A stretch of DNA of 64,000 bases. It comes from Phycisphaerae bacterium (GTDB taxonomy: Bacteria > Planctomycetota > Phycisphaerae > UBA1845). The DNA lies in assembly GCA_028289375.1 (NCBI GenBank), contig JANQQK010000080.1:62001-126000 (forward strand), read 5' to 3'. Below are positions 8,037-20,952 of the stretch, piece after piece. The position numbers and the translations under genes were made by a program. Each line of letters opens with the position of its first letter. Position 1 is the first letter of the stretch. The notes below the pieces were generated by a model, which ran no database searches, was not told the origin of the DNA, and worked only from the letters and a program-made list of their open reading frames with translations.

Positions 8037-8107
8037 GTAGGGTGGGCATTGCCCACCATTTTGGTAACGTCCGATTGCATTCCCAAGGTGGGCGGTGCCC
8101 ACCCTAC
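8037..8107. repeat. 71-bp interspersed repeat, copy 2
   Basis: Begins GTAGGGTGGGC (8037-8047) and ends GCCCACCCTAC (8097-8107), a perfect 11-bp terminal inverted repeat. The interior matches copy 1 nearly base for base. It lies between the PEP-CTERM gene and truB, 39 bp before the truB start. Confidence 0.9.
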
Positions 8108-8146
8108 GCCGATTGACAGCGGTGGCGGCGATGGAATACTGGTTAA

Positions 8147-8875
8147 ATGTCGCTCGATGGGATCATCAACCTGCACAAGCCGCTGGGGATCACGTCTGCA
8201 CGGGCGGTGCATCGGGTGCGTGGGATCGTGGGGTTCAAAAAAAGTGGGCATGCGGGGTCGCTCGATCCGGCGGCGGAGGGCGTGCTGATCGTCTGTCAGG
8301 GGCGGGCGACGAAGCTGGTCGAACACGTCATGGACCTGCCCAAAACGTACATGGCCACCGCACGTCTCGACCTGACGAGCATTTCGTATGACAGCGAGGG
8401 TGCGACCGAGGAGGTGGCCGTCGAGCGCGTGCCGGACGAGGCTGCGGTTCGCGAAGCGTTCGCCGGGTTCGTCGGGGAGATCGCCCAGGTACCGCCGCGA
8501 CGCAGTGCGGTGAAGCTCGGTGGGACGCCCGCGTACAAAACGATGAACCTGGAAAACCCGCCCGAGATTCGGCCTCGGATCGTTCGGATTGACGCGATCA
8601 ACGTCCTCTCGTTCGATTGGCCTGTGGTGCGGTTTGAGATGATCTGCGGACGCGGGACGTACGTGCGGTCGGTCATTCGCGACGTGGGTGAGAAGCTGGA
8701 AACGGGTGGATGCCTGACGGCGTTGGAGCGGCCTGCGGTCGGACCGTTTACGATGGACGAAGCATTGGGATTGGATGAACTGCGGGAGCGCGTGGCCAAT
8801 GGCGAGCCGTACCTGATGCCGCTGGACGAGGCGAAGGGGATTTTGTCGTCGGCGTTGGGCGTTGAGATTTGGTAG
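8147..8875 (+). CDS. truB: tRNA pseudouridine(55) synthase TruB
   Basis: 242 residues, the short bacterial form. Converts U55 of the tRNA T-loop to pseudouridine. It starts with the family signature GIINLHKPLGITSARAV and carries the catalytic motif GHAGSLDPAAEGVL with Asp40 as nucleophile (GHTGTLDP in most relatives). KTYMATARLDLTS and CGRGTYVRSVIRDVGEKL are further conserved blocks. It lacks a clear C-terminal PUA domain. No strong ribosome site is visible before the ATG. GH3 and Hsp20 genes follow on the same strand. Confidence 0.95.
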   Translation: MSLDGIINLHKPLGITSARAVHRVRGIVGFKKSGHAGSLDPAAEGVLIVCQGRATKLVEHVMDLPKTYMATARLDLTSISYDSEGATEEVAVERVPDEAAVREAFAGFVGEIAQVPPRRSAVKLGGTPAYKTMNLENPPEIRPRIVRIDAINVLSFDWPVVRFEMICGRGTYVRSVIRDVGEKLETGGCLTALERPAVGPFTMDEALGLDELRERVANGEPYLMPLDEAKGILSSALGVEIW

Positions 8876-8887
8876 GCGTAGGAGCGG

Positions 8888-10597
8888 ATGGCGAAATCAA
8901 TCGGTGACAAGTTACTGGCCAGGCTTGCGAAGCTGCACGCGGGGCGCATGTTTCGCCGCTTCATGCGCGACGCCGCGCGGGCGCGGGCGGTGCAGGATCG
9001 GTTGCTGACGTCGCTGGTGGGTGCCAACGCATCGAGCGACTACGGGCAGGCACATGGATTTGCGTCGATTCGCGGATACGCGGATTTCGTGAGACAGATT
9101 CCCATCACGCGGTACGACATGCTGAAACCGTACGTCGAGCGTGTGATGGCCGGCGAAACCTCCGCGATGTTCGGCGACGTTCAACGCGTGCACATGTTCG
9201 CCATGACCAGCGGCACCGTGGACGAACCGAAGTACGTGCCGGTGACGGATCGGTTCATGGCTGAGCATCGCGCGGGATGGAATGCGTTTGGCGCGAAAGC
9301 GTTGTCGGATCATCCGGACGCGCTCGTGCGATACATCCTGCAGGTGACGTCGCCGATGGACGAGGAACGTGCGGCGGGCGGACTGCCGTGCGGAGCGATC
9401 ACGGGGATGATGGCCCGGAACCAGAAGCGGATCGTGCGGAAGTACTACATCACTCCGCCGGAGGTCGCGTACATCTCCGACACGACGGCGCGGCGGTACA
9501 CGATCATGCGGCTGGCGATGCCGGCGGATGTTTCATGGATCGTGACGGCCAGTCCTGCGACGGTTCTGCAACTGGCACGCATCGGGGACGCGGAGTCGGA
9601 GCGGATCATTCGCGACGTGCGCGACGGGACGTTGTCGGCGGACATGGATATTCCCAGCGACGTGCGACAGGCGTTGGCACCGCGACTGACGGCTGATACA
9701 GCAGCGGCCGATCGATTGGCGCGGTTGCGAAGCGAATGGGGACGCCTGTATCCGCGCGACTATTGGAATCTCGGATTTCTCGCCAACTGGACCGGCGGGA
9801 CGATGGGCTTGTATCTGCAGGACTTTCCGGAGTACTTCGGTGATGTGCCGGTGCGTGACATCGGACTGCTCGCCACCGAGGGGCGCATGTCGCTGCCGAT
9901 TGAGGACGGCACGGCGTCGGGTGTGGCCATGGTTTCGTCGGTGTTTCTCGAGTTCATACCGGCTGAGCAGTATGGCCGCGAAGATCCTGACGTGCTGCGT
10001 TGTCATGAGGTCGAAGTTGGGCGCGAGTATTTCCTGCTGCTGACCAACTCGGCGGGTTTCTATCGGTATGACATCGGCGATTGCGTGCGCGTAACGGGAT
10101 TCGTCGGCGAAGCGCCATTGATCGCATTTCTGAACAAAGGGGCGCACATCAGTTCGGTGGCGGGAGAGAAGATCACGGAGCATCAGGTGGTGTCGGCCTT
10201 CGAGCGGGCGGCGGCGGCGTGTGATCCTGGATCGCGCGAGTTCGTGCTGGCACCGCGATGGGGGCAACCGCCCTGCTATCGACTGTTCGTCGAACCCGAC
10301 GCCAGCCAACACGTATCAACTCTGGAACCGCTGGCCGACGTGTTCGATCGGGTGCTCAGCGAGATGAACATCGAGTATGCGTCGAAGCGCTCGAGCGGTC
10401 GGCTGGGCGACGTCGAACTTGTCACGTTGCAAACTGGAGCGATGGCCGACCTGCACCGCGAGCAGGCACATCGCTATCGGGCGTCGAACGAGCAGTTCAA
10501 GCACCGCTATCTGCTCACGCATCCGGGCGAGGACGAGGCGTTGATGGCGATGGCCGTGGGCGAAAAACATGGAAAAGTCGCCGCCATGGACGGATAA
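8888..10597 (+). CDS. GH3 auxin-responsive-promoter family protein (acyl-adenylate enzyme)
   Basis: 569 residues, a usual GH3 length. GH3 enzymes are ANL-superfamily acyl-acid amido synthetases that adenylate a carboxylate and join it to an amine. Visible signatures are FAMTSGTVDEPKYVPVT (phosphate-binding loop), YWNLGFLANWTGGTMGLY, LLATEGRMSLPIEDG, FYRYDIGDCVRVTGF (conserved Asp) and HISSVAGEKITEHQVVSAF. Preceded by GGAGCGG and 12 bp after truB, so probably cotranscribed. Substrate unknown; bacterial members are mostly uncharacterised. Confidence 0.9.
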   Translation: MAKSIGDKLLARLAKLHAGRMFRRFMRDAARARAVQDRLLTSLVGANASSDYGQAHGFASIRGYADFVRQIPITRYDMLKPYVERVMAGETSAMFGDVQRVHMFAMTSGTVDEPKYVPVTDRFMAEHRAGWNAFGAKALSDHPDALVRYILQVTSPMDEERAAGGLPCGAITGMMARNQKRIVRKYYITPPEVAYISDTTARRYTIMRLAMPADVSWIVTASPATVLQLARIGDAESERIIRDVRDGTLSADMDIPSDVRQALAPRLTADTAAADRLARLRSEWGRLYPRDYWNLGFLANWTGGTMGLYLQDFPEYFGDVPVRDIGLLATEGRMSLPIEDGTASGVAMVSSVFLEFIPAEQYGREDPDVLRCHEVEVGREYFLLLTNSAGFYRYDIGDCVRVTGFVGEAPLIAFLNKGAHISSVAGEKITEHQVVSAFERAAAACDPGSREFVLAPRWGQPPCYRLFVEPDASQHVSTLEPLADVFDRVLSEMNIEYASKRSSGRLGDVELVTLQTGAMADLHREQAHRYRASNEQFKHRYLLTHPGEDEALMAMAVGEKHGKVAAMDG

Positions 10598-10621
10598 TGA
10601 TGTGAGAAGGGAGGCGTCATC

Positions 10622-11062
10622 ATGATGCGACGTGATTGGCAGGACATCCGATCGTTGGGCGATCTACGCGAGGAGATGGAGAACATGTTCAGCCAGTTTG
10701 CGGGGGCGGTTGGGCATGAGATTCCGGCCCGGTTTCGCACAGATCCGGTCGTGAATCTGATCGAGGACGCGGAGAGCTTCCACGCCGAGTTCGAAGTGCC
10801 GGGACTGACGATGGATCGGATCGACGTGGAGGTACTGGGCGAGCAGTTGACGGTGAAAGGTCGGCGGTCAGCCGTCGAGTCGGAGCACCTGATGTTCCAC
10901 CGTCGCGAGCGGGCTGCCACCGATTTCTCGCGGACGCTGGTGTTGCCGACGAGTGTCAACGTCGAGAAGGCTTCGGCCACGTTGAAGGACGGCGTGCTAA
11001 CCGTGACAATGCCGAAGTCGGACGTGGCCAAGGCCCGACGGGTGGAGGTGACGTCGGATTAG
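10622..11062 (+). CDS. Small heat-shock protein, Hsp20/alpha-crystallin family
   Basis: 146 residues. ATP-independent holdase chaperone. The alpha-crystallin domain covers about residues 40-140, with FHAEFEVPGLTMDRIDVEV, LTVKGRR, FSRTLVLPTSVNVEKASATL and the GVLTVTMPK block (A-x-x-x-n-GVL-x-V). Strong ribosome site GGGAGG before two adjacent ATGs. The C-terminal IXI motif is not obvious. Follows the GH3 gene by 24 bp and precedes the tRNA-Sec gene. Confidence 0.95.
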   Translation: MMRRDWQDIRSLGDLREEMENMFSQFAGAVGHEIPARFRTDPVVNLIEDAESFHAEFEVPGLTMDRIDVEVLGEQLTVKGRRSAVESEHLMFHRRERAATDFSRTLVLPTSVNVEKASATLKDGVLTVTMPKSDVAKARRVEVTSD

Positions 11063-11160: not shown

Positions 11161-11256
11161 GGGAGTGTCCGGACGCCTGGTGGGTCCCGCGGCCTTCAAA
11201 GCCGTTGAGGGGTTGCTGACGTAGCTCCTGGTGGGTTCGATTCCCATCCGCTCCCG
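11161..11256 (+). tRNA. selC: tRNA-Sec (anticodon TCA), selenocysteine tRNA
   Basis: 96 nt. Acceptor strands GGGAGTG(T) and CCGCTCCC pair, with discriminator G and no encoded CCA. The anticodon arm GCGGC-CTTCAAA-GCCGT gives anticodon TCA, which reads UGA. A long variable arm (AGGGG ... CTCCT with an inner GCT/AGC) and T-arm GTGGG-TTCGATT-CCCAT are present. Long acceptor, long D stem and long variable arm are the tRNA-Sec traits. The organism should therefore make selenoproteins; selA and selB are not in this window. The 3' 74 bases beginning at 11185 are repeated at 14003. Confidence 0.9.
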
Positions 11257-11258
11257 TT
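11185..11258 (+). repeat. attL-type direct repeat (in the tRNA-Sec gene)
   Basis: Starts TCCCGCGGCCTTCAAAGCCG and ends CGCTCCCGTT; identical over 74 bases to 14003-14076. It contains the anticodon, variable and T arms. Confidence 0.9.
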
Positions 11259-11282
11259 ATTTTCCATCATATTCTTGCGGGT

Positions 11283-11291
11283 TGATATAAT
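11283..11291 (+). promoter_or_regulatory. Extended -10 promoter inside the island
   Basis: TGATATAAT, that is TGn followed by a perfect TATAAT at 11286-11291, with only a weak -35. A start near 11298 would give a leader of about 25 bases before the ATG at 11324. Confidence 0.5.
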
Positions 11292-11323
11292 TATCACGGG
11301 CTCGATTTGAAAGGGTCTGTGCT

Positions 11324-12019
11324 ATGCGTCGTGGCCCGCAACCCAACTTCGTCCGTGACCGCCACGACAACACGGTCAGCGGGCTCCGCACCCAAAAGCA
11401 CTACCAAATCCTCGCAGGTCACGTTGCGAACGGTGTAGATGGCAACTACATTCGGAGAAATCCAAGAATCGTTGAGTTGGCTTGCCGAGCGATTGAGCGG
11501 CTTTACTTTGATGAGGCTCGGAGGACGGAGTTCATGGGTGACATACGAAGCAATCTACGTGAAATAACGAAGCAGGAAATCGATGCAATAGCTCGCAGAA
11601 GCGAATGGTATGGCATCGAAACTGCTGATTCTGCCGATGTCCGATTACTTGAATTCGACCTCGGGCTCGACAGCGTAGTTTCATACCCTGCAGGCTCCCT
11701 CCCCAAAGATATCCACCTCCACGTTCTCAACGTCGGCTCAATCAGAATCGGATTTGAAATCTCCTTCATGCAATGGGCATTCGTGACGGGGTCATTCCCA
11801 ACTGACCGTCTTCGAGTGGGCTTTGCAGTCCGTCCATCGTCGGAGCAAGCGAAGAAGTGGGAGGATGCGAGCGGTGCCAACTGGGCGGTTTCGTTTTGCT
11901 GGGAAGGCAATCCATTGCGGGCCGAAGAGATGCCTCAGGACAGCTGGCCTGACCAAATAGATGACATTCTTCCAGTTTATCGTCTTTGGGCAATACAACA
12001 GGCGGAGTCAATGCTCTGA
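11324..12019 (+). CDS. Hypothetical protein, island cargo
   Basis: 231 residues, no signal peptide or membrane segment, no motif I recognise. The N-terminal 110 residues are charged and helical (IVELACRAIERLYFDEARRTEF, LREITKQEIDAIARR). The C-terminal half looks beta-rich with aromatic residues (FEISFMQWAFVTGSFPTDRL, NWAVSFCWEGNP). It is the first gene after the attL-type repeat, with its own extended -10 promoter. Base composition is lower in GC than flanking core genes, consistent with transfer. It converges on the ADP-ribosylglycohydrolase gene. Confidence 0.7.
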   Translation: MRRGPQPNFVRDRHDNTVSGLRTQKHYQILAGHVANGVDGNYIRRNPRIVELACRAIERLYFDEARRTEFMGDIRSNLREITKQEIDAIARRSEWYGIETADSADVRLLEFDLGLDSVVSYPAGSLPKDIHLHVLNVGSIRIGFEISFMQWAFVTGSFPTDRLRVGFAVRPSSEQAKKWEDASGANWAVSFCWEGNPLRAEEMPQDSWPDQIDDILPVYRLWAIQQAESML

Positions 12020-12111
12020 TTTCGAAGCGACGAGCGACAAGTTGAACGGGAACAAACCCAAATGAGACAAAGGGAGGGCCAGCCATCGAAGCATGATCCT
12101 TGCGTATCCCA

Positions 12112-13170
12112 TCAGTAGGGCGGCAAGAGGCGCCGGAAACCATGGGTCAGCACGATCACCAAGAATGCGAGATTCCGGATCAACAGCAAGCTGGAGGCAC
12201 ATCGCGGAACGACATTGGCTCCGCGATTCCGATCGAAATCGCTGACGGCACGTGCCAACACATCCATCCACTCAACGGTGCATGGCCATTCCGCCAGCTT
12301 GTCAATCCAATCGCTGGGTATCCCACCCACACCAACCTGCGTGCCGCCCAGGGCACCGGCGATCGCCCCAACTGTGTCGGCATCACCGCCGAGGCATACC
12401 GCTGACTCGACGGTGTCGCGGTAGTTGCCCTGGTGCGCGAACCAGCAATGGACCGCAACCGGAACGGTGTGGACGACAAACCCAGTGACTCCATTTCCGA
12501 GTCCAAGTCTTTCGGCGAGGACGTCAGATTCCGTGCCCTGCTTGGCCGCCTCAAACGCAAGTACAATATTCCGGCGAAGTTCCGCATCGCCAGCGATCGG
12601 CAGGATTCGGCCACTTACCTCGTCTTCATTCAGACGCCGGCCACCTGTCGCGACTATCTTCTGCGCGATTGCGGCCACAATGTGCGCGCTCTGTTCCGCG
12701 CGTGGGTCCGTATGAGTGATGCGACTCGATGCCCGCACCAACGCGGCAAGTTTCTCTTCTGACGTGGTCACGAGCCCAAGCAACGCACTGCGCATTGCTG
12801 GGCCATTTCCGGCACTGCGTACCCCGCTTCGCTCGGGAGACACACCGCACCACAGCTTGAGGCAGGCCCGCAGCGTACCCAATCCAACGCCGGCCGGCAC
12901 ACGCAGGAGCCACCACCGGAGTCGTCGGGCGAAATCGCGCCGGAACGCTTCTAACTCTCCGCCGCCTGCGACGAGCGACTGCGCGACCATAACCGTCTGC
13001 TCTGTGTCATCGCTGCATAACCCACGCCCCGCAATCATGCGGTGCCGGAGTGGTCGTCCACCGCACAGGCGCTCTGCGCGTCGACGACTAAGGCCTTCGC
13101 GCGGCAGACCAATCGCGTCTCCAACAGCCGTGCCAACCAAGCAACCATTGATGTGGTCATATGGCATCAT
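12112..13170 (-). CDS. ADP-ribosylglycohydrolase family protein (DraG-like)
   Basis: 352 residues. Removes ADP-ribose from modified macromolecules with two Mg2+ ions. Visible family signatures are GCLVGTAVGDAIGLP at the start, SDDTEQT (metal ligands about residues 53-57), GNGPAMRSALLG, THTDPRAEQSA and LGGDADTVGAIAG near residues 260-272 (second metal site). The last 40 residues add a hydrophobic tail (SLLLIRNLAFLVIVLTHGF) that could anchor it in the membrane, not usual for the family. The start overlaps the stop of the upstream small gene by ATGA, so the two are coupled. Target unknown. Confidence 0.9.
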   Translation of the reverse strand: MMPYDHINGCLVGTAVGDAIGLPREGLSRRRAERLCGGRPLRHRMIAGRGLCSDDTEQTVMVAQSLVAGGGELEAFRRDFARRLRWWLLRVPAGVGLGTLRACLKLWCGVSPERSGVRSAGNGPAMRSALLGLVTTSEEKLAALVRASSRITHTDPRAEQSAHIVAAIAQKIVATGGRRLNEDEVSGRILPIAGDAELRRNIVLAFEAAKQGTESDVLAERLGLGNGVTGFVVHTVPVAVHCWFAHQGNYRDTVESAVCLGGDADTVGAIAGALGGTQVGVGGIPSDWIDKLAEWPCTVEWMDVLARAVSDFDRNRGANVVPRCASSLLLIRNLAFLVIVLTHGFRRLLPPY

Positions 13171-13562
13171 GATTGGTCGTCAGTCGCCTTCCGTTCTTTG
13201 ACAGCCGCCTTCTTGAGCGTCTCGCGCTGCTTCAACGACATTCGCAGTTCCTCGTCAGTGGCCAGGGTCGGACGTCCGGCGAGTCGGTGCAACTCGTCAC
13301 GCGCCTGCATGAGTGCAATCCCAAGCCCATGACGGCCACGCCCGAGTCGCCAAGGTGCTGGACTCGAAAAAACAATCGACTTGTTCCAGTCACAATGCGC
13401 GATATTAACCGACCACGCCCCGCCTGTCAGACCGCCTTGGTGACGCAGACCCAATGCGTTCGTCCGCCTAGCAGTCGGGACCAAGAGCGTCGCGACCATG
13501 TCCGTCACGAGCGACATGCGCGCGGCGAGGGTCAACCGCTTGAGAAGTGACTCACAACGCAT
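13167..13562 (-). CDS. Small protein coupled to the ADP-ribosylglycohydrolase
   Basis: 131 residues from the ATG at 13562 (a longer frame to 13667 has no better start). Its stop overlaps the hydrolase start (ATGA, 13167-13170), so the two are a translational unit. The N-terminal region is basic and hydrophobic; the C-terminus is charged (DEELRMSLKQRETLKKAAVKERK). I recognise no family. By analogy with ADP-ribosyl transferase/hydrolase pairs it could be the partner of the hydrolase, but it is short and shows no transferase motif, so this is speculation. Confidence 0.5.
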   Translation of the reverse strand: MRCESLLKRLTLAARMSLVTDMVATLLVPTARRTNALGLRHQGGLTGGAWSVNIAHCDWNKSIVFSSPAPWRLGRGRHGLGIALMQARDELHRLAGRPTLATDEELRMSLKQRETLKKAAVKERKATDDQS

Positions 13563-14002
13563 GGGGACAATGTAGCACACGTGATCGTGGTATCGCACGT
13601 GATTCTCCAGCGGACGTAACGCGAACAGGTGCTTTGACTCGTTGCGACTATGCGGGGATAAGCTCATCGCATACCCGGCACATCAGCACGACAATGACTC
13701 AGACTGCCCCTCACCCTCCTTGCCCATTGATCTCCCGACACAAACTGGGGGCGAGCCACCGACAGTCCCCTCGCCCCTCGGGTCGCCCACGCTTGCCCAA
13801 GTTGCTTGGTGGCGGTCATCGGTGGATGGCCGTTTGCCGGTCTTCGACGAGGAGGACCATGTAGGCCTTCGCCTCCAATCGTACGGTGGAAGCGAGGAGG
13901 TGGTGGAATGCCTGTCGAGCAATACCTAGATCAACAGACACAATCGCTATCTCATGGCAACCCCCAATTAGAATCTCCCTCTTGGGCGCGCCAGCGTGTC
14001 CT
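13563..14002. other. Island right end without recognisable gene
   Basis: About 440 bases between the coupled gene pair and the attR-type repeat. Frames of 60-100 codons exist on both strands but none has a ribosome site, known motif or convincing composition. It may contain a decayed integrase or other remnant; I cannot show this. Confidence 0.4.
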
Positions 14003-14076
14003 TCCCGCGGCCTTCAAAGCCGTTGAGGGGTTGCTGACGTAGCTCCTGGTGGGTTCGATTCCCATCCGCTCCCGTT
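14003..14076 (+). repeat. attR-type direct repeat (tRNA-Sec 3' fragment)
   Basis: Perfect 74-base copy of 11185-11258. The upstream sequence (GGGCGCGCCAGCGTGTCCT) does not supply a D-arm or acceptor strand, so this is a fragment and not a second tRNA. Confidence 0.9.
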
Positions 14077-14297: not shown

Positions 14298-15740
14298 ATG
14301 AACGTCCTTTCCACGCTAGATCCGAAACAGGTGGCCAAGCCCTCAACACTATCGCGTACCGCCAAATGGCAGGTTCTTGCAGGGGCCATGCTCGTACAGC
14401 TCATTCTCGGGACGGTCTACGGCTACAGCGTGTTCTGGCAGCCGCTGATCAAAACGATCTGGGGCGAATCACCCACCGCAGCCTCGGCCGTGGTCGAGGG
14501 TGTGACGGCCACCGTCGCGGCGACCGGCGTTGTTGAGGCCGCCGCAGCAGAAAATGCAACCCGCCAAAGCCAACTCAAGTATGCCTTTTCGATCTGCGTC
14601 CTGTCTTTCGCGATTTCCATGATCTTCGCGGGGCGACTCCAGGACGTTCGCGGGCCACGATTTACCACTGTTCTCGGCGGCGTGATCATTGGCGTCGGGT
14701 TTCTGCTGGCCGCCCTCGTTGTGCCGAGATCGCCGGTCGCGAACAGCAACAACAGCACGATTTACCTGCTGTGGCTTACCATCGGACTGCTGGCCGGCGT
14801 CGGCATCGGGTTCGCCTACGTCTGTCCGATTGCAGCCTTGGTGAAGTGGTTTCCGGCACATAAGGGACTGGTCTCCGGCATTGCCGTGGCGGGGTTTGGC
14901 TTTGGAGCGTTCATCTTTGCCCAGAAGGACAGCTGGGTGGGGGCTGTCAGCTTCATCGAGTCCTACGGCATTCGATCCTTCTTCCTGACGCATGCGGGCA
15001 TTTCGTTTTTCGTGGTCTTCATGGGCGGACTGATGCTGCGTAACCCACCAGCAGCACCGCAAACTGCCGATGCAAGCAAATTGATATCAACATCCGATGC
15101 GACTTGGCAGGAACTCTTGCGATCGTGGCGATTCTACATCGTGTGGCTGATGTTCTTCAGCGGATCGTTGGCTGGCTTGATGGTGATCGGAATCCTGAAG
15201 GACTTCGCCGGCAACCAACTGGTCGGTGCGGCTGAAGCATCCGGCGCGATCATGACCGATCAGCTCCGAAGCGAACTGATCCTGAACGGTGCGACGGCGG
15301 TCGGCGTTTTGGCGATTTTCAATGCCCTGGGACGTGTGGTTTGGGGGATCGTCTCCGACCGCATCGGCCGAACGCCTTCCATGTTGCTGATGTTCATCCT
15401 GCAGGGGATGACGATGTTCGCGTTGGTAGCACTCCGGACCGAGATGACGCTGTCGATCGGCGCTGGCTTGGTGGGCTTCTTCTATGGCGGTATCTTCGCG
15501 TTGTTCCCCTCGCTGACGGCGGACATGTTCGGGGCGAAGAACCTTGGTGCCAACTATGGATGGGTCTTTACGTCGTACGGCATCGCCGGCGTCATCGGCG
15601 TGTTCGTCGGCAACCTGGCCCACCGTCAGACGGGCAGCTATTTCACCGCTTTTGCGATCGCCGGCGTACTGTGTTTCCTGTCCGCCGTACTCGCGTTGGT
15701 TCTGCATGCCGGCCAAAGTCGCAAGCCGAAGACGTGCTGA
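14298..15740 (+). CDS. MFS transporter, oxalate/formate antiporter (OFA) type
   Basis: 480 residues from the ATG at 14298, preceded by GAGGAG at an 8-base spacing; the longer frame to 14154 has no support. About twelve membrane helices. QLILGTVYGYSVFWQPL in helix 1 matches the G-x-x-Y-x-x-S-V-F signature of OFA-family carriers; GRLQDVRGPR is the MFS loop 2-3 motif; GRVVWGIVSDRIGRTP is the equivalent motif in the second half. A large Ala/Val-rich insert after helix 1 (residues 45-85) is unusual. Substrate is probably a small organic anion (inference from the family). Confidence 0.85.
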   Translation: MNVLSTLDPKQVAKPSTLSRTAKWQVLAGAMLVQLILGTVYGYSVFWQPLIKTIWGESPTAASAVVEGVTATVAATGVVEAAAAENATRQSQLKYAFSICVLSFAISMIFAGRLQDVRGPRFTTVLGGVIIGVGFLLAALVVPRSPVANSNNSTIYLLWLTIGLLAGVGIGFAYVCPIAALVKWFPAHKGLVSGIAVAGFGFGAFIFAQKDSWVGAVSFIESYGIRSFFLTHAGISFFVVFMGGLMLRNPPAAPQTADASKLISTSDATWQELLRSWRFYIVWLMFFSGSLAGLMVIGILKDFAGNQLVGAAEASGAIMTDQLRSELILNGATAVGVLAIFNALGRVVWGIVSDRIGRTPSMLLMFILQGMTMFALVALRTEMTLSIGAGLVGFFYGGIFALFPSLTADMFGAKNLGANYGWVFTSYGIAGVIGVFVGNLAHRQTGSYFTAFAIAGVLCFLSAVLALVLHAGQSRKPKTC

Positions 15741-15779
15741 TTGGTCGTGAACGGGCAGCCGAGCTCAGTCTCAAGCGCC

Positions 15780-16730
15780 CTAAAGGAAGTCGCGGACGCG
15801 CAGCCGGTATATCAACGGGCCTTCCATCAGGTAAATGTTCGGGCCTCGTGCTGCCTGAAAGTCAGGCTTGATCAACTCCCGCGAGGTATTGAGCGGCCAA
15901 ACGTCGGTGAGCGTTCTGGTGTGGGGCGGCTCTTGAAGTTGGATGAGAAGCAGATCACCGGCATCACCGTAGCCACTCCGCATGAGCACAAGGTCTCGGT
16001 CCACTGCGAAAAGACTGGATCCGTCGATCGGCACATCCCAGTGCGCGTGGTATTCACACCGACGCAGGTGCACGAGAACGTATTCGCTGTAGTAGTAGAA
16101 CCATGTTCCCGCATCAGATGTGATGTTCAGTGCGTAACAATCGTCGATGTGCTCGAGTCTGCGAGGCGGGCGGTAGGCGTACTGCAAGTCGCCCCGGTCA
16201 TTGAAGCAGTTCAATCCGGACGAGCCGATCGGTTCGTCCCACCCGTAGTTGCCGTAAACCCCTTCGTCGAAATAACTAACCCAGATGGCATGGTTCTCGG
16301 TTGTTTGCACATCTTCGATGCCATCACCCAAGGTGAACTCGGACAAAAGAAGCCCGTTCTCCGAGTCGAATACTTGAGCATTTTTGTCGATGCTTGATGA
16401 ACTCCGGCGTTCACTCCGTGCTGAAACCAACAACAAACGATCATGCGACAGTGGCTGAACGAAGTGGAAATTCCAGTTCTGCCCATGAATGTCAAAACGC
16501 TTCTTTCCGTAGCGGTTGATCCTGATGATCCTGTAGTCGTGAGCTGTTTCCGTCGTCAGTTTTGCGAATACAGCGCCGGTCGACTCATCCCAATGGTCCG
16601 GTTCGCCGCGGTGCAGCAGCACGTAGACATCTTCCGAAGGCCCGACATTCAGGGCGACTCGCGTGAACCCCTCGAGATCGGCAGAAAGATCGGCGAACAA
16701 CTCAACGCTGTCTCCGTGAACCGTACCCAT
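15780..16730 (-). CDS. Hypothetical protein, possible beta-propeller
   Basis: 316 residues, no signal peptide. Repeating short hydrophobic strands with aromatic residues and loops such as DCYALNITSDAGTWFYYYS and AVDRDLVLMRSGYGDAGDL suggest an all-beta, propeller-like fold. It begins 5 bp after the stop of the 185-residue gene, so the two form an operon. Lower GC than the core genes. No known family recognised. Confidence 0.6.
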   Translation of the reverse strand: MGTVHGDSVELFADLSADLEGFTRVALNVGPSEDVYVLLHRGEPDHWDESTGAVFAKLTTETAHDYRIIRINRYGKKRFDIHGQNWNFHFVQPLSHDRLLLVSARSERRSSSSIDKNAQVFDSENGLLLSEFTLGDGIEDVQTTENHAIWVSYFDEGVYGNYGWDEPIGSSGLNCFNDRGDLQYAYRPPRRLEHIDDCYALNITSDAGTWFYYYSEYVLVHLRRCEYHAHWDVPIDGSSLFAVDRDLVLMRSGYGDAGDLLLIQLQEPPHTRTLTDVWPLNTSRELIKPDFQAARGPNIYLMEGPLIYRLRVRDFL

Positions 16731-16735
16731 GACGC

Positions 16736-17293
16736 CTAACCGATCTCCATCGAAAACGCGACGCCGACCCAGTCGTCAAGCTGAAGTGCGATGGCGAGCC
16801 ACGTGATATCGTCGACGCTTGTAGCGTCTGGTGGATACTCGAAGCCAATGGCGGCACGGAGCGTCACGATGTTCCCATCATGGTCCGTGACCGGCTGCGG
16901 CGACGGGCCCGCTCCATCGAACGCGAAGCCATCAAAGTGCTCATGCAACCGTATCATGTGCGACCAACCATCGTCGTCGGCTGCGGAACCAGGTCGGGGC
17001 ATGATGGCCGGCTCGGCATTGTCTTCATACGGCAGAGCAAGCTGCACATCCGGATCTCCATCCACCACGAGATCAAAAACGGAAAACGTCGGTTCGCCGT
17101 GCCCACAAAAAGACCCATCGATCAACGCACCGACAGGTCCGTTAAGCTCGGCCTCACGGCATACCTCCGCGATGAAGCTCGGCGGCTCGGCTCCGGCAAT
17201 GGGACTCCTGTTCTTCTGCGTGAGGCGGCTCAACGGTGCCGCAGCACCGCCCGGTACAAGGAATTCATGATCACCCAGCTTGAATCCACCCAT
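16736..17293 (-). CDS. Hypothetical acidic protein
   Basis: 185 residues, acidic and Pro/Gly-rich, soluble. Segments such as VPGGAAAPLSRLTQKN, PRPGSAADDDGWSHMIRLHEHFDGF and DDWVGVAFSMEIG are not assignable to a family. Its size, acidity and pairing with the orphan gene at 15780-16730 resemble immunity-type accessory genes, but no toxin gene is present. Function unknown. Confidence 0.55.
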   Translation of the reverse strand: MGGFKLGDHEFLVPGGAAAPLSRLTQKNRSPIAGAEPPSFIAEVCREAELNGPVGALIDGSFCGHGEPTFSVFDLVVDGDPDVQLALPYEDNAEPAIMPRPGSAADDDGWSHMIRLHEHFDGFAFDGAGPSPQPVTDHDGNIVTLRAAIGFEYPPDATSVDDITWLAIALQLDDWVGVAFSMEIG

Positions 17294-17502
17294 CGATATA
17301 TCTTTCGCTCAACGTTCCAGAATTGAACAACATCAACGACTGTTACATTAAGGCATGTCCGCCGCACGACAAGACACGAACATTCCAGCAGCGTCGACCG
17401 AGTGGCCCAGGTGTGCACATCGAGAAGCCAGGCGCGGATCCCAGTCAAATCAGTTATGCTCCCCTTGAAGCGGATGAAGCGTCACATGCAGGAGGCTGCG
17501 TT

Positions 17503-18213
17503 ATGAACACCGTCAAACAGGTCATGGCTGAACTGAAGAGGAAAGGCGACCCGCGACGGGTCAAAGCCTATGCACCGCACGGCGGGCCGGACGATCTGTA
17601 CGGTGTCAGCGTGGCCGACCTGAAGGTGATCGCCAAGAAGATCAAGGGGCAGCATGAGTTGGCCTATCAGCTCTACGAGACGGGCAATGCGGACGCCATG
17701 TATCTGGCCGGCATCGTTGCGGACGGTTCGCAGATGACGAAGAAGCAGTTGGAGTCGTGGGCGAAGAACGCCACATGGCAGATGCTGTCCGAGTACACCG
17801 TGCCGGGCGTCGCCACCGAGAGCAAACATGCCCGCGCGTTGGCCACCAAGTGGATCAATGCGAAACGCGAAGCGGTCGCGTCATCGGGATGGAACACCTA
17901 CGCAGGCATCGTGGCTGTCACGCCGGATGACGAGTTGGACATGGCCGAGATCAAGGCGTTGCTCAAGCGGATCGAGCAGGAGATCGACGCTGCGCCGAAC
18001 CGCGTGAAGTACACCATGAACGGCTTCGTGATTGCCGTGGGCAGCTACGTGTCGCCGCTCAGCAAGCAAGCCAATGCCACGGCCAGGAAACTCGGAAAGG
18101 TCGAAGTGGACATGCACGGCACGTCCTGCAAAGTGCCCCTCGCGACCGAGTACATCGCCAAGGTCGAAAAATCAGGCCGAGTCGGTAAGAAACGCAAGAC
18201 GATCAAGTGCTGA
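17503..18213 (+). CDS. AlkD-like DNA alkylation repair protein
   Basis: 236 residues from the ATG at 17503, with ribosome site AGGAGG. The helical-repeat pattern begins QVMAELKRKGDP and continues YGVSVADLKVIAKKIK, AYQLYETGNADAMYLAGIVAD and WAKNATWQMLSEYTVPGVA. This matches the HEAT-like AlkD superfamily, which excises or binds alkylated bases. The C-terminus is Lys-rich (KSGRVGKKRKTIKC), suited to DNA binding. Repeat copy 3 follows 28 bp after the stop. Upstream-extended frame to 17323 rejected for lack of a ribosome site. Confidence 0.8.
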   Translation: MNTVKQVMAELKRKGDPRRVKAYAPHGGPDDLYGVSVADLKVIAKKIKGQHELAYQLYETGNADAMYLAGIVADGSQMTKKQLESWAKNATWQMLSEYTVPGVATESKHARALATKWINAKREAVASSGWNTYAGIVAVTPDDELDMAEIKALLKRIEQEIDAAPNRVKYTMNGFVIAVGSYVSPLSKQANATARKLGKVEVDMHGTSCKVPLATEYIAKVEKSGRVGKKRKTIKC

Positions 18214-18241
18214 CTGGGGCAAGTCGGTGTCAGGCGAAATT

Positions 18242-18312
18242 GTAGGGTGGGCATCGCCCACCAAAGGGCAAGATTGGCGTGCAACCGAAATGGTGGGCAA
18301 TGCCCACCCTAC
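18242..18312. repeat. 71-bp interspersed repeat, copy 3 (inverted)
   Basis: Begins GTAGGGTGGGC and ends GCCCACCCTAC. Its reverse complement aligns with copy 2: the left 25 bases differ at one position, while the centre is more diverged. Same length, opposite orientation. Confidence 0.85.
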
Positions 18313-18347
18313 AGCTTCCTCGTTGTGTTCGTATTAAAACTGTAGGC

Positions 18348-18369
18348 CAGGTTAAGCGAAGCGAACCTG
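18348..18369. repeat. Short palindrome next to repeat copy 3
   Basis: CAGGTT-AAGCGAAGCG-AACCTG, a 6-bp stem with a symmetrical loop, 35 bases after repeat copy 3. It looks like a second type of REP-like hairpin. Otherwise 18313-18492 holds nothing I can identify. Confidence 0.45.
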
Positions 18370-18492
18370 ACGGAACGCCCAATCCGTTTTCACATCAACA
18401 ATCGAGCGTACAGGCAACCGCATCTCCTACGAATCGTCAGATCCCCCCGGCGCGCCAGAACAGACCTGAACAATTTGCCCTCCATTGCCACG

Positions 18493-18849
18493 TTATTCAT
18501 ACGGGTTCTCCAATTCATATCGTGTAATATGATCTGGCCAGCCCTCGTCGTATGTGAACCCCTCAAGAAATGCAATCTTCCCGTCGCGAACGAAAAGTTC
18601 AAACCCGACGCCGTGACTGACTCCGTCAAGATCGGCATTGAATCCGCCGATCGTGAAGTTCCGCGGTATTGCACACGGCAATTCGACGGGCACTTCATAG
18701 TTCAAGAAAAATCCCACGCCAGTAAATTCGACATCTCGAACAATTGAACACACGTATTGTTCGCGGAGTATCGCAAAGCCCGGACGATCTGGCGAGAGAA
18801 TCAAATCCACCACATCGCGGCAGAGTGCATCAAACTTGTCAAGTGCCAT
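18493..18849 (-). CDS. Hypothetical protein
   Basis: 118 residues, soluble, acidic. Sequence features include VCSIVRDVEFTGVGFFLNYEVP and LEGFTYDEGWPDHITRYEL. The ending GWPDHI...YEL resembles small orphan or immunity-type proteins often found singly in variable regions. Lower GC than neighbours. No functional assignment. Confidence 0.55.
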   Translation of the reverse strand: MALDKFDALCRDVVDLILSPDRPGFAILREQYVCSIVRDVEFTGVGFFLNYEVPVELPCAIPRNFTIGGFNADLDGVSHGVGFELFVRDGKIAFLEGFTYDEGWPDHITRYELENPYE

Positions 18850-18905
18850 TGATGCTTCTCGTGCGAACTACTGCGCAATCCATGCCTGCATCAGCCCTGC
18901 CGGTC

Positions 18906-19451
18906 TCATTCGTCTTCAGCAATTTCCCATATACCTTCCCGCCATGACATGATCGCTGCTTCAGCGCGTTCATCGCAAATAACATCTGCTCGCACACAAT
19001 CCTCGAACGAGTAGTGAAAGTTCACTTCGCAAGGCATTCCCAGGAGCATTAACTCTGGATCTACCGGAGTCCCCGGCGACATAAGAAACAACTGGTCGAG
19101 AAAACCAAATTCCTCAAGTAGTTCGACATCAACATCGAATTGCTTCCGAAACGCCTTAATCGCCTCAAGGAACTCTTTCTCTTTCTCATCGCCGAATAAT
19201 TGCAAGTACAGCGAGTGTGTCTGATCACCTACGTCGAGATTTCGGCGCAATAGGTACTCGGCCTCTGCCACTTCGCCGACATCGTGTAGCAATGCCCCAA
19301 GCCGTCTTAAGTCCTCTTCGCTTTCTTCGCCCGCGCTCAACAATGCCCCAAGTCGCTCGATCTCCACGGCAGCGTCGGGATGTGACATGCGGATGGAGTC
19401 TAGGTCCACGTTGTCGATGCCTGCAGCTGGGATCTCGTATTCTCCCGACAT
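18906..19451 (-). CDS. Hypothetical acidic protein with helical-repeat centre
   Basis: 181 residues from the ATG at 19451; a TTG at 19484 would overlap the neighbouring gene and was not chosen. Strongly acidic. The centre (ERLGALLSAGEESEEDLRRLGALLHDVGEVAEAEYLLRR) shows a duplicated RLGALL helix like tetratricopeptide-type repeats. Follows the aldehyde dehydrogenase gene by 20 bp on the same strand. Function unknown. Confidence 0.55.
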   Translation of the reverse strand: MSGEYEIPAAGIDNVDLDSIRMSHPDAAVEIERLGALLSAGEESEEDLRRLGALLHDVGEVAEAEYLLRRNLDVGDQTHSLYLQLFGDEKEKEFLEAIKAFRKQFDVDVELLEEFGFLDQLFLMSPGTPVDPELMLLGMPCEVNFHYSFEDCVRADVICDERAEAAIMSWREGIWEIAEDE

Positions 19452-19470
19452 CCCTGAGTCGCTTTGGGAG

Positions 19471-20952
19471 TTACCGTTCCCCAAGATTCACCCACACCGT
19501 CTTCACCTCGCTGTAAAGCTCCATCGCGTCCTTGCCGTTCTCGCGGCCGGAACCGCTGAACTTGAATCCGCCGAACGGGGCGGCCGGGTCAAACGTGTTG
19601 TAGCAGTTGACCCACACCGTGCCGGCGCGGACGCCGTCGGCGATGGCGAAGGCTTTGGTGATGTCCTTGGTCCACACTGCGGCGGCCAACCCATACATCG
19701 TCGTGTTGGCCTGTTTGACCACATCGTTCATGTCCTTGAACCGCAGCACGCTCGCGACGGGGCCGAAGATCTCCTCCTGGGCGATGCGCATGTCGTTGCG
19801 GACGTCGGCAAAGATCGTCGGCTTGACGAACCAGCCCTTGTCGCCGTGGGCCGCCCCGCCGGCGACGCAGGTGGCTTTGTCCTCGTTCTTGCCGATGTCG
19901 ATGTAGCGGAGCACCTTGTCGTACTGCTCCTTCGAGACCTGCGCCCCCTGCTGCGTGGATTTGTCGAACGGATTCCCGACCTTGTGCGACTCTGCCGCGG
20001 CCTTGAACCGCGACAGGAACTCGTCATGGATCGAGTCCTCGACGAACAGGCGACTGCCGGCGCAGCAGACTTCGCCCTGATTGAAGAAGATGCCGGTCAT
20101 CGCGCCGGCCACAGCTTCGTCGAGATCAGCATCGGCGAAGACAACGGCTGGACTCTTGCCGCCAAGCTCGAAGCTGGTGCGCTTGAGCGTGTCGGCTGCG
20201 TTACGCATGATGATTTGAGCGGTCTTGTACTCGCCCGTGAATCCGATCTTGTCGACACCAGGATGTTTGACCAATGCATCACCGGCCAACTCCCCGAACC
20301 CGTTGACCACGTTGATGACGCCCGGCGGGAAGCCGGCTTCTGTCGCAAGTTCGGCCAACTTCAACGCAGTAAGCGGTGTCTGCTCGGCTGGCTTGAGCAC
20401 GACCGTGTTGCCGCACGCCAACGCCGGTCCCCATTTCCATGCCGCCATCAGCATGGGGAAGTTCCACGGAATGATCTGCCCGCAAACGCCGACCGGCTCG
20501 CGCTTCGTGTAGCAGAAGAAGTTGCCCAGCGTGCGGTCGACCGGAATCGTGTCGCCGGTCCATTTGTCCGCCCATCCGCCGTAGTAGCGAAACGTCTCAG
20601 CCACCAGCGGCACATCTGCGAAGCTCACTTCGCGAATCGGCTTTCCGTTGTTGAGCACCTCGAGGGCGGCCAACTCGTCGGCGTGCTGCATGACAAGGTC
20701 GGCGAGCTTGAAAAGGCATCGGCCACGATCGCGGGCGCTGAATTTCGACCAGGGCCCGTTTTCGAGCGCCTCGCGTGCTGATTTGACGGCCCGGTCGATG
20801 TCGCCGGCTTCACCCTCAGCCACGTGTGCGATGACGTCGCCGGTGGCGGGATTGAAGGCTTCAAACGTGCGGCCGCTGTCGGCATCGCACCATTCGCCGT
20901 TGATGAGGTTCTTGGTCAGCGTCACTTTCGGGGATTCGAGCGTGGCGGCCAT
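19471..20952 (-). CDS. NAD(P)-dependent aldehyde dehydrogenase
   Basis: 493 residues, full length for the ALDH superfamily, oxidising an aldehyde to its acid. Signatures: INGEWCDADSGRTFEAFNPATG (N-terminus), IPWNFPMLMAAWKWGPALA (cofactor site), FELGGKSPAVVFADADLD (catalytic Glu) and FFNQGEVCCAGSR (catalytic Cys about residue 296-297). FGGFKFSGSGRENG near the C-terminus places it with betaine/phenylacetaldehyde-type enzymes. Strong ribosome site GGAGG. Substrate cannot be read from sequence. Confidence 0.95.
   Translation of the reverse strand: MAATLESPKVTLTKNLINGEWCDADSGRTFEAFNPATGDVIAHVAEGEAGDIDRAVKSAREALENGPWSKFSARDRGRCLFKLADLVMQHADELAALEVLNNGKPIREVSFADVPLVAETFRYYGGWADKWTGDTIPVDRTLGNFFCYTKREPVGVCGQIIPWNFPMLMAAWKWGPALACGNTVVLKPAEQTPLTALKLAELATEAGFPPGVINVVNGFGELAGDALVKHPGVDKIGFTGEYKTAQIIMRNAADTLKRTSFELGGKSPAVVFADADLDEAVAGAMTGIFFNQGEVCCAGSRLFVEDSIHDEFLSRFKAAAESHKVGNPFDKSTQQGAQVSKEQYDKVLRYIDIGKNEDKATCVAGGAAHGDKGWFVKPTIFADVRNDMRIAQEEIFGPVASVLRFKDMNDVVKQANTTMYGLAAAVWTKDITKAFAIADGVRAGTVWVNCYNTFDPAAPFGGFKFSGSGRENGKDAMELYSEVKTVWVNLGER

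Follow-up and report, generated by a model that had tools for sequence, protein, structure and literature searches.

The window analysed here, a 64,000-nucleotide stretch of contig JANQQK010000080.1 from a Phycisphaerae bacterium, carries an intact gene for the selenocysteine tRNA (selC) whose 3' part recurs downstream on the same strand, and three open reading frames (ORFs) lie between the two copies (Table 1). The copies are identical at all 74 of 74 nucleotides, with a start-to-start distance of 2818 bp, and extend from just before the selC anticodon stem to 2 nt beyond the tRNA 3' end; outside these limits their flanks do not match. The repeat has a blastn E value of 9e-39, and given that a control search of the upstream sequence and the reverse strand at 42 selC loci reached only 16 bp (E 3e-4), it cannot be attributed to chance. 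A preliminary description of this DNA, which had reported selC with perfect 74-bp direct repeats and a very small element of 2.8 kb, was accurate in these respects. The displaced selC fragment (13984-14073) scores 49.6 bits in Rfam, above the gathering cut-off of 47, although several of its acceptor-stem positions are unpaired and ARAGORN makes no call there; Rfam used alone would yield a false second tRNA-Sec gene at this place. The same genome has selA and selB together on contig C45, which makes it very likely that the cell uses selC and that restoration of the tRNA is of importance to it, as was already supposed when the organism was taken to use selenocysteine.

Table 1. Features of the selC locus and its surroundings (positions refer to the window unless another locus is named).
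Feature	Position	Strand	Basis or remark
Left backbone, truB-GH3-hsp20	8147-11062	+	75% DNA identity with same-genus G001; proteins 79-82%
selC (tRNA-Sec), intact; 3' part within attL	11161-11256	+	ARAGORN; Rfam RF01852, 67.8 bits
74-bp exact direct repeat, left copy	11185-11258	+	
Integrase relic, N-terminal 25 codons (MRRGPQPNFVRD..GLRTQK)	11324-11398	+	G062 and G019 integrase starts
Integrase relic, C-terminal 37 codons, with GH box and catalytic Tyr	11399-11509	+	Alignments
Integrase C-terminal fragment without the rest of the gene	11411-11509; L054, 4131-4229; L056, 8104-8202 and 13015-13113		
Small cargo protein, residues 71-231 of the fused ORF	11534-12019	+	G036 and G044 homologues
ADP-ribosylglycohydrolase (DraG/ARH family)	12112-13170	-	PF03747, E 1.2e-59
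166-aa ORF	13167-13667	-	No match in Pfam, NCBIfam, PHROGs or PADLOC
74-bp repeat, right copy; displaced selC 3' fragment (attR)	14003-14076	+	
Right flank, lactate/oxalate-type MFS transporter	14298-15740	+	No G001 match

The first ORF of the element (11324-12019, +; 231 aa) begins 68 bp past selC and has no match in Pfam, NCBIfam, PHROGs or PADLOC, but three pieces emerge when it is compared with related genomes. Two of them correspond to tyrosine integrases of about 450-500 aa, the N-terminus being matched by residues 1-25 and the C-terminus by residues 26-62; the third, residues 71-231, has homologues in G036 and G044 that are free-standing proteins of 188-191 aa. The N-terminal piece shares 58% identity over 24 aa with the start of the G062 integrase and also resembles the start of the integrase that adjoins selC in G019. 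The C-terminal segment keeps the box II His and the catalytic Tyr (AGH, NYIRRNP; Tyr codon at 11447-11449), both of which fall on active-site positions in an alignment with XerA-type structures, while the complete catalytic domain with both Arg and the Lys is absent, about 380 codons being missing. As read from these alignments, the ORF carries an integrase gene whose middle ~380 codons were deleted in frame, and another ~14 bp, the integrase stop codon among them, appear from the alignment with G007 to have been lost as well, which would have fused the relic to the cargo gene. The preliminary description had seen no integrase; there is indeed no complete gene, but an internally deleted relic stands directly beside selC. 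A split integrase of the SSV type was also considered and rejected, as no int(N) partner piece was found in G000 or the single-contig G008, nor in the G007 and G008 loci.

Among the remaining cargo, the ADP-ribosylglycohydrolase has relatives of known structure (PDB 2cwc, 1t5j and 2woe), and none of the three ORFs of the element was recognised as a conjugation or mobilization gene. A role of the cargo in anti-phage defence was dismissed, PADLOC giving no match. Structures modelled for the 231-aa and 166-aa ORFs had a mean pLDDT of 52-54 and were set aside. ARAGORN also calls a tRNA-Arg within the ADP-ribosylglycohydrolase gene (12814-12906, -), which is probably a false positive. The GC content of the element is 58.2% against 59.7%, ranking 56th of 307 equal-sized windows, and that of the relic ORF is 53.3%, ranking 14th of 634; the lower GC first ascribed to the cargo is therefore a borderline feature of the whole element and distinct only in the relic ORF, and GC is weak proof of a foreign origin.

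The integrase family to which the relic belongs is found beside t(m)RNA genes in several relatives. In G019 a complete member, assigned to the tyrosine recombinases (PF00589, E 7e-10), is located directly downstream of selC and reads away from it, on a contig of 6.4 kb that stops before any right end of an island; further complete members adjoin tmRNA in G026 and G044 and tRNA-Glu in G026. The family integrase that follows selC in G054 is broken, being interrupted after 319 aa, and G007 has a complete one on a different contig from its selC island. The relic lies on the same strand as the complete G019 gene and the broken G054 gene. A search for a tyrosine recombinase elsewhere in the host, proposed at the outset, gave 12 PF00589 matches, none of which, the relic excepted, is a close member of the family, and no complete integrase of the relic's family was found in the host assembly (94 contigs, estimated 99% complete). 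A host integrase acting in trans was rejected on this ground, and for the same reason current mobility of the element is unsupported.

We compared 42 selC loci, those of the window and 41 relatives, and a repeat of the selC 3' end occurs downstream of selC in five of them (window, G007, G034, G010 and G054), the search extending up to about 17 kb downstream so that larger islands would escape it. The repeats of the relatives are shorter (25-45 bp) than the 74 bp of the window: 45 bp at +4700 in G007, with a second partial copy at +5794, 28 bp at +567 in G034, 25 bp (96%) at +1213 in G010, and 27 bp (96%) at +1861 in G054. The segments that follow selC in these four genomes (0.6-4.7 kb) differ from one another, each being bounded by the selC 3'-end repeat, and the G019 locus with its complete integrase and missing right end is a sixth case. 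In G007 the 200 bp after selC reappear after each repeat, and the locus is a tandem array. Element-side arms are common to G007 and G034 (79%, 147 bp) and to the second G007 site and G054 (83%, 137 bp), and these shared arms cross genus or family lines, G054 belonging to another family of the order. Direct repeats of the TTGTGAGT type are located in both G054 arms, in the left arm of G019 and in the second right arm of G007, as would be expected for arm-type integrase sites. The arms of the window lack both the arm sequences conserved in other selC islands and the arm-type repeats seen there, and its cargo occurs at selC in no relative, apart from an integrase scrap in G007. The suggested comparison of selC contents in relatives thus reveals different islands at the same place, and the relic, the repeats that end at the tRNA 3' end and these islands bear out the original proposal that selC serves as an integration site. 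Distant relatives did not share the arrangement in fixed form; what lies at selC varies by genome. An apparent partial selC in G008 was set aside as a second attachment site, given that it abuts a scaffold gap of 100 N.

To the left of the element, the order truB-GH3-hsp20-selC is collinear between the window and G001, and collinearity ends exactly at the selC 3' end, past which G001 has a PP2C-like gene followed by an apparent rplT, with no selC repeat and no integrase of the relic's family at its selC locus. Collinearity returns only at about 19472, on other G001 contigs. The empty site is thus present in G001 in its left half, while the right side is rearranged and the right flank of the window is not beside selC; selC joined to that right flank was seen in no relative. 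The region 14298-19472 is itself not collinear with G001, its GC content falls to 53% at 18-19 kb, and only 17503-18200 matches G001, elsewhere in that genome; another variable region, or the breakpoint of a rearrangement, may lie here beside selC.

The locus is most probably a decayed, integrase-less remnant of a mobile element inserted at selC. The island resembles a cis-mobilizable element that would have been either inserted recently or homogenised, and it occupies a site at which integration recurs in Phycisphaerae. We infer that a mobile element whose tyrosine integrase belonged to the family seen in Phycisphaerae beside t(m)RNA genes would have recombined its attP with selC, and because this attP bore a copy of the selC 3' part, the tRNA would have been restored on the left and the original 3' end pushed to the right. 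The integrase gene would have adjoined attL and read away from selC, as it does in G019, and would then have lost its ~380 internal codons, perhaps together with most of the element, leaving the 2.8-kb remnant with the ADP-ribosylglycohydrolase and two further genes. Excision driven by the element itself would no longer be possible, and movement would require a complete relative, either as the source of the integrase or integrated alongside. The displaced copy has stayed identical to selC though it should be free to drift, which fits an insertion of recent date or else conversion of one copy by the other; the exact repeat is in keeping with the earlier judgement that the insertion is recent or selected, but gene conversion may also account for it.

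Three other explanations were weighed against this remnant. It is improbable that the element is still mobile, as a non-autonomous mini-element that lost its integrase long ago, kept its att sites intact and is moved in trans, the other selC islands being its kin. The repeat has remained exact despite the lost integrase, small selC islands without a complete integrase occur in G034, G010, G054 and G007, and the last of these genomes does hold a complete family integrase on another contig, all of which such an element would accommodate; the host assembly, however, has no complete family member at its estimated 99% completeness, and the window has no arm-type repeats.

Still less room is left for the view that the selC 3' end was duplicated locally, without any insertion, and that the intervening genes are native. 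Such a duplication would likewise give an exact repeat, and no relative supplied the right half of an empty site, but a relic of a t(m)RNA-adjacent integrase family follows directly after selC, the tRNA 3' end is the limit of the repeat here and in four other genomes alike, and no relative has the intervening genes at its selC. We regard as just as improbable an assembly chimera in which unrelated sequence was joined at a selC repeat. In its favour, the assembly is split into 94 contigs, the right flank lacks collinearity with G001, and the G008 partial selC starts exactly at its gap, which shows that selC repeats do break assemblies here; against this, the relic at the left junction has the same strand and position as in independent genomes, and both repeat copies are well inside a contig of 137 kb.

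The mobile-element remnant can be placed among several systems that have been described. Islands in tRNA genes as catalogued by Islander (PMC4383910) are bounded by a restored tRNA gene and a displaced 3' fragment, with the integrase gene inside, and the locus shares with them the intact tRNA, the 3' fragment on the same strand and an integrase gene that once lay beside the tRNA. The Islander rules require an integrase and set a minimum of 2 kb (PMC4383910), whereas the window has only an internally deleted relic. CIMEs are decayed elements that keep both attachment sites and have lost their recombination and transfer genes (PMC7563491); the window likewise keeps an exact repeat, has a relic integrase and no transfer gene among its ORFs, but CIMEs descend from an ICE or IME and no conjugation or mobilization gene is recognised here. 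CIMEs are also mobilized in cis once a related element has accreted to them, and among the selC loci compared a tandem array occurs in G007 only. The selC 3' end is also the target of enterobacterial islands, with 24-bp direct repeats (PMC6174562), and of the Burkholderia phage PhiE067, with a 19-bp attachment site (PMC7266877). These have complete integrases and are much larger, in contrast to the 2.8 kb, the relic and the 74-bp repeat of the window, which belongs to another phylum. The kind of island is itself ordinary, being of the known tRNA-integrated type; the site is recurrent in Phycisphaerae and the islands are unusually small. No report of selC integration in planctomycetes was found in a literature search that covered few subscription journals, so that selC becomes a recurrent integration site in a phylum for which the literature searched holds no such report. 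The comparison also adds a tyrosine-integrase family with members beside selC, tmRNA and tRNA-Glu, and documents very small islands of a sort excluded by the rules of a standard island finder (PMC4383910).

The C-terminal end of the integrase recurs alone, without the rest of the gene, within the selC island of G007 and at two places in G008, and its conservation is mainly at the protein level. All four scraps, from three genomes, start within about ten codons of one another, and the sequence upstream is different in each. Between the window and G007 the differences number 1, 2 and 19 at codon positions 1, 2 and 3, and given that 3 nonsynonymous changes stand against 19 synonymous ones, the scraps probably belonged to working integrases for most of their history. 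They are read as relics; a function as a small peptide was considered, against which the second G008 copy has no ATG, GTG or TTG start ahead of its LAGH segment. In a scan of genome contigs the only records with the scrap were those of G007 and G008, which are both Phycisphaerae, in agreement with the planctomycetal host assumed from the start, and a scan of viral contigs gave no relative. It can be speculated, as an unlikely conjecture, that selC of Phycisphaerae hosts miniature, mostly integrase-less islands (0.6-5 kb) spread in trans by t(m)RNA-targeting integrases, the common cut of the scraps being a specific recurrent truncation or cassette boundary and not random decay.

Two minor observations concern G008 (locus L056). 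About 850 bp after each of its scraps are common to both places (8104-8950 and 13015-13860; ~90% identity) and form two paralogous cargo units, the sequence upstream of the two being unrelated. Also, a ~40-bp sequence around AAAAGAATCCTGACACCTTTTTTC recurs several times between 9636 and 14842, in direct as well as inverted orientation, and possibly represents a dispersed repeat family.
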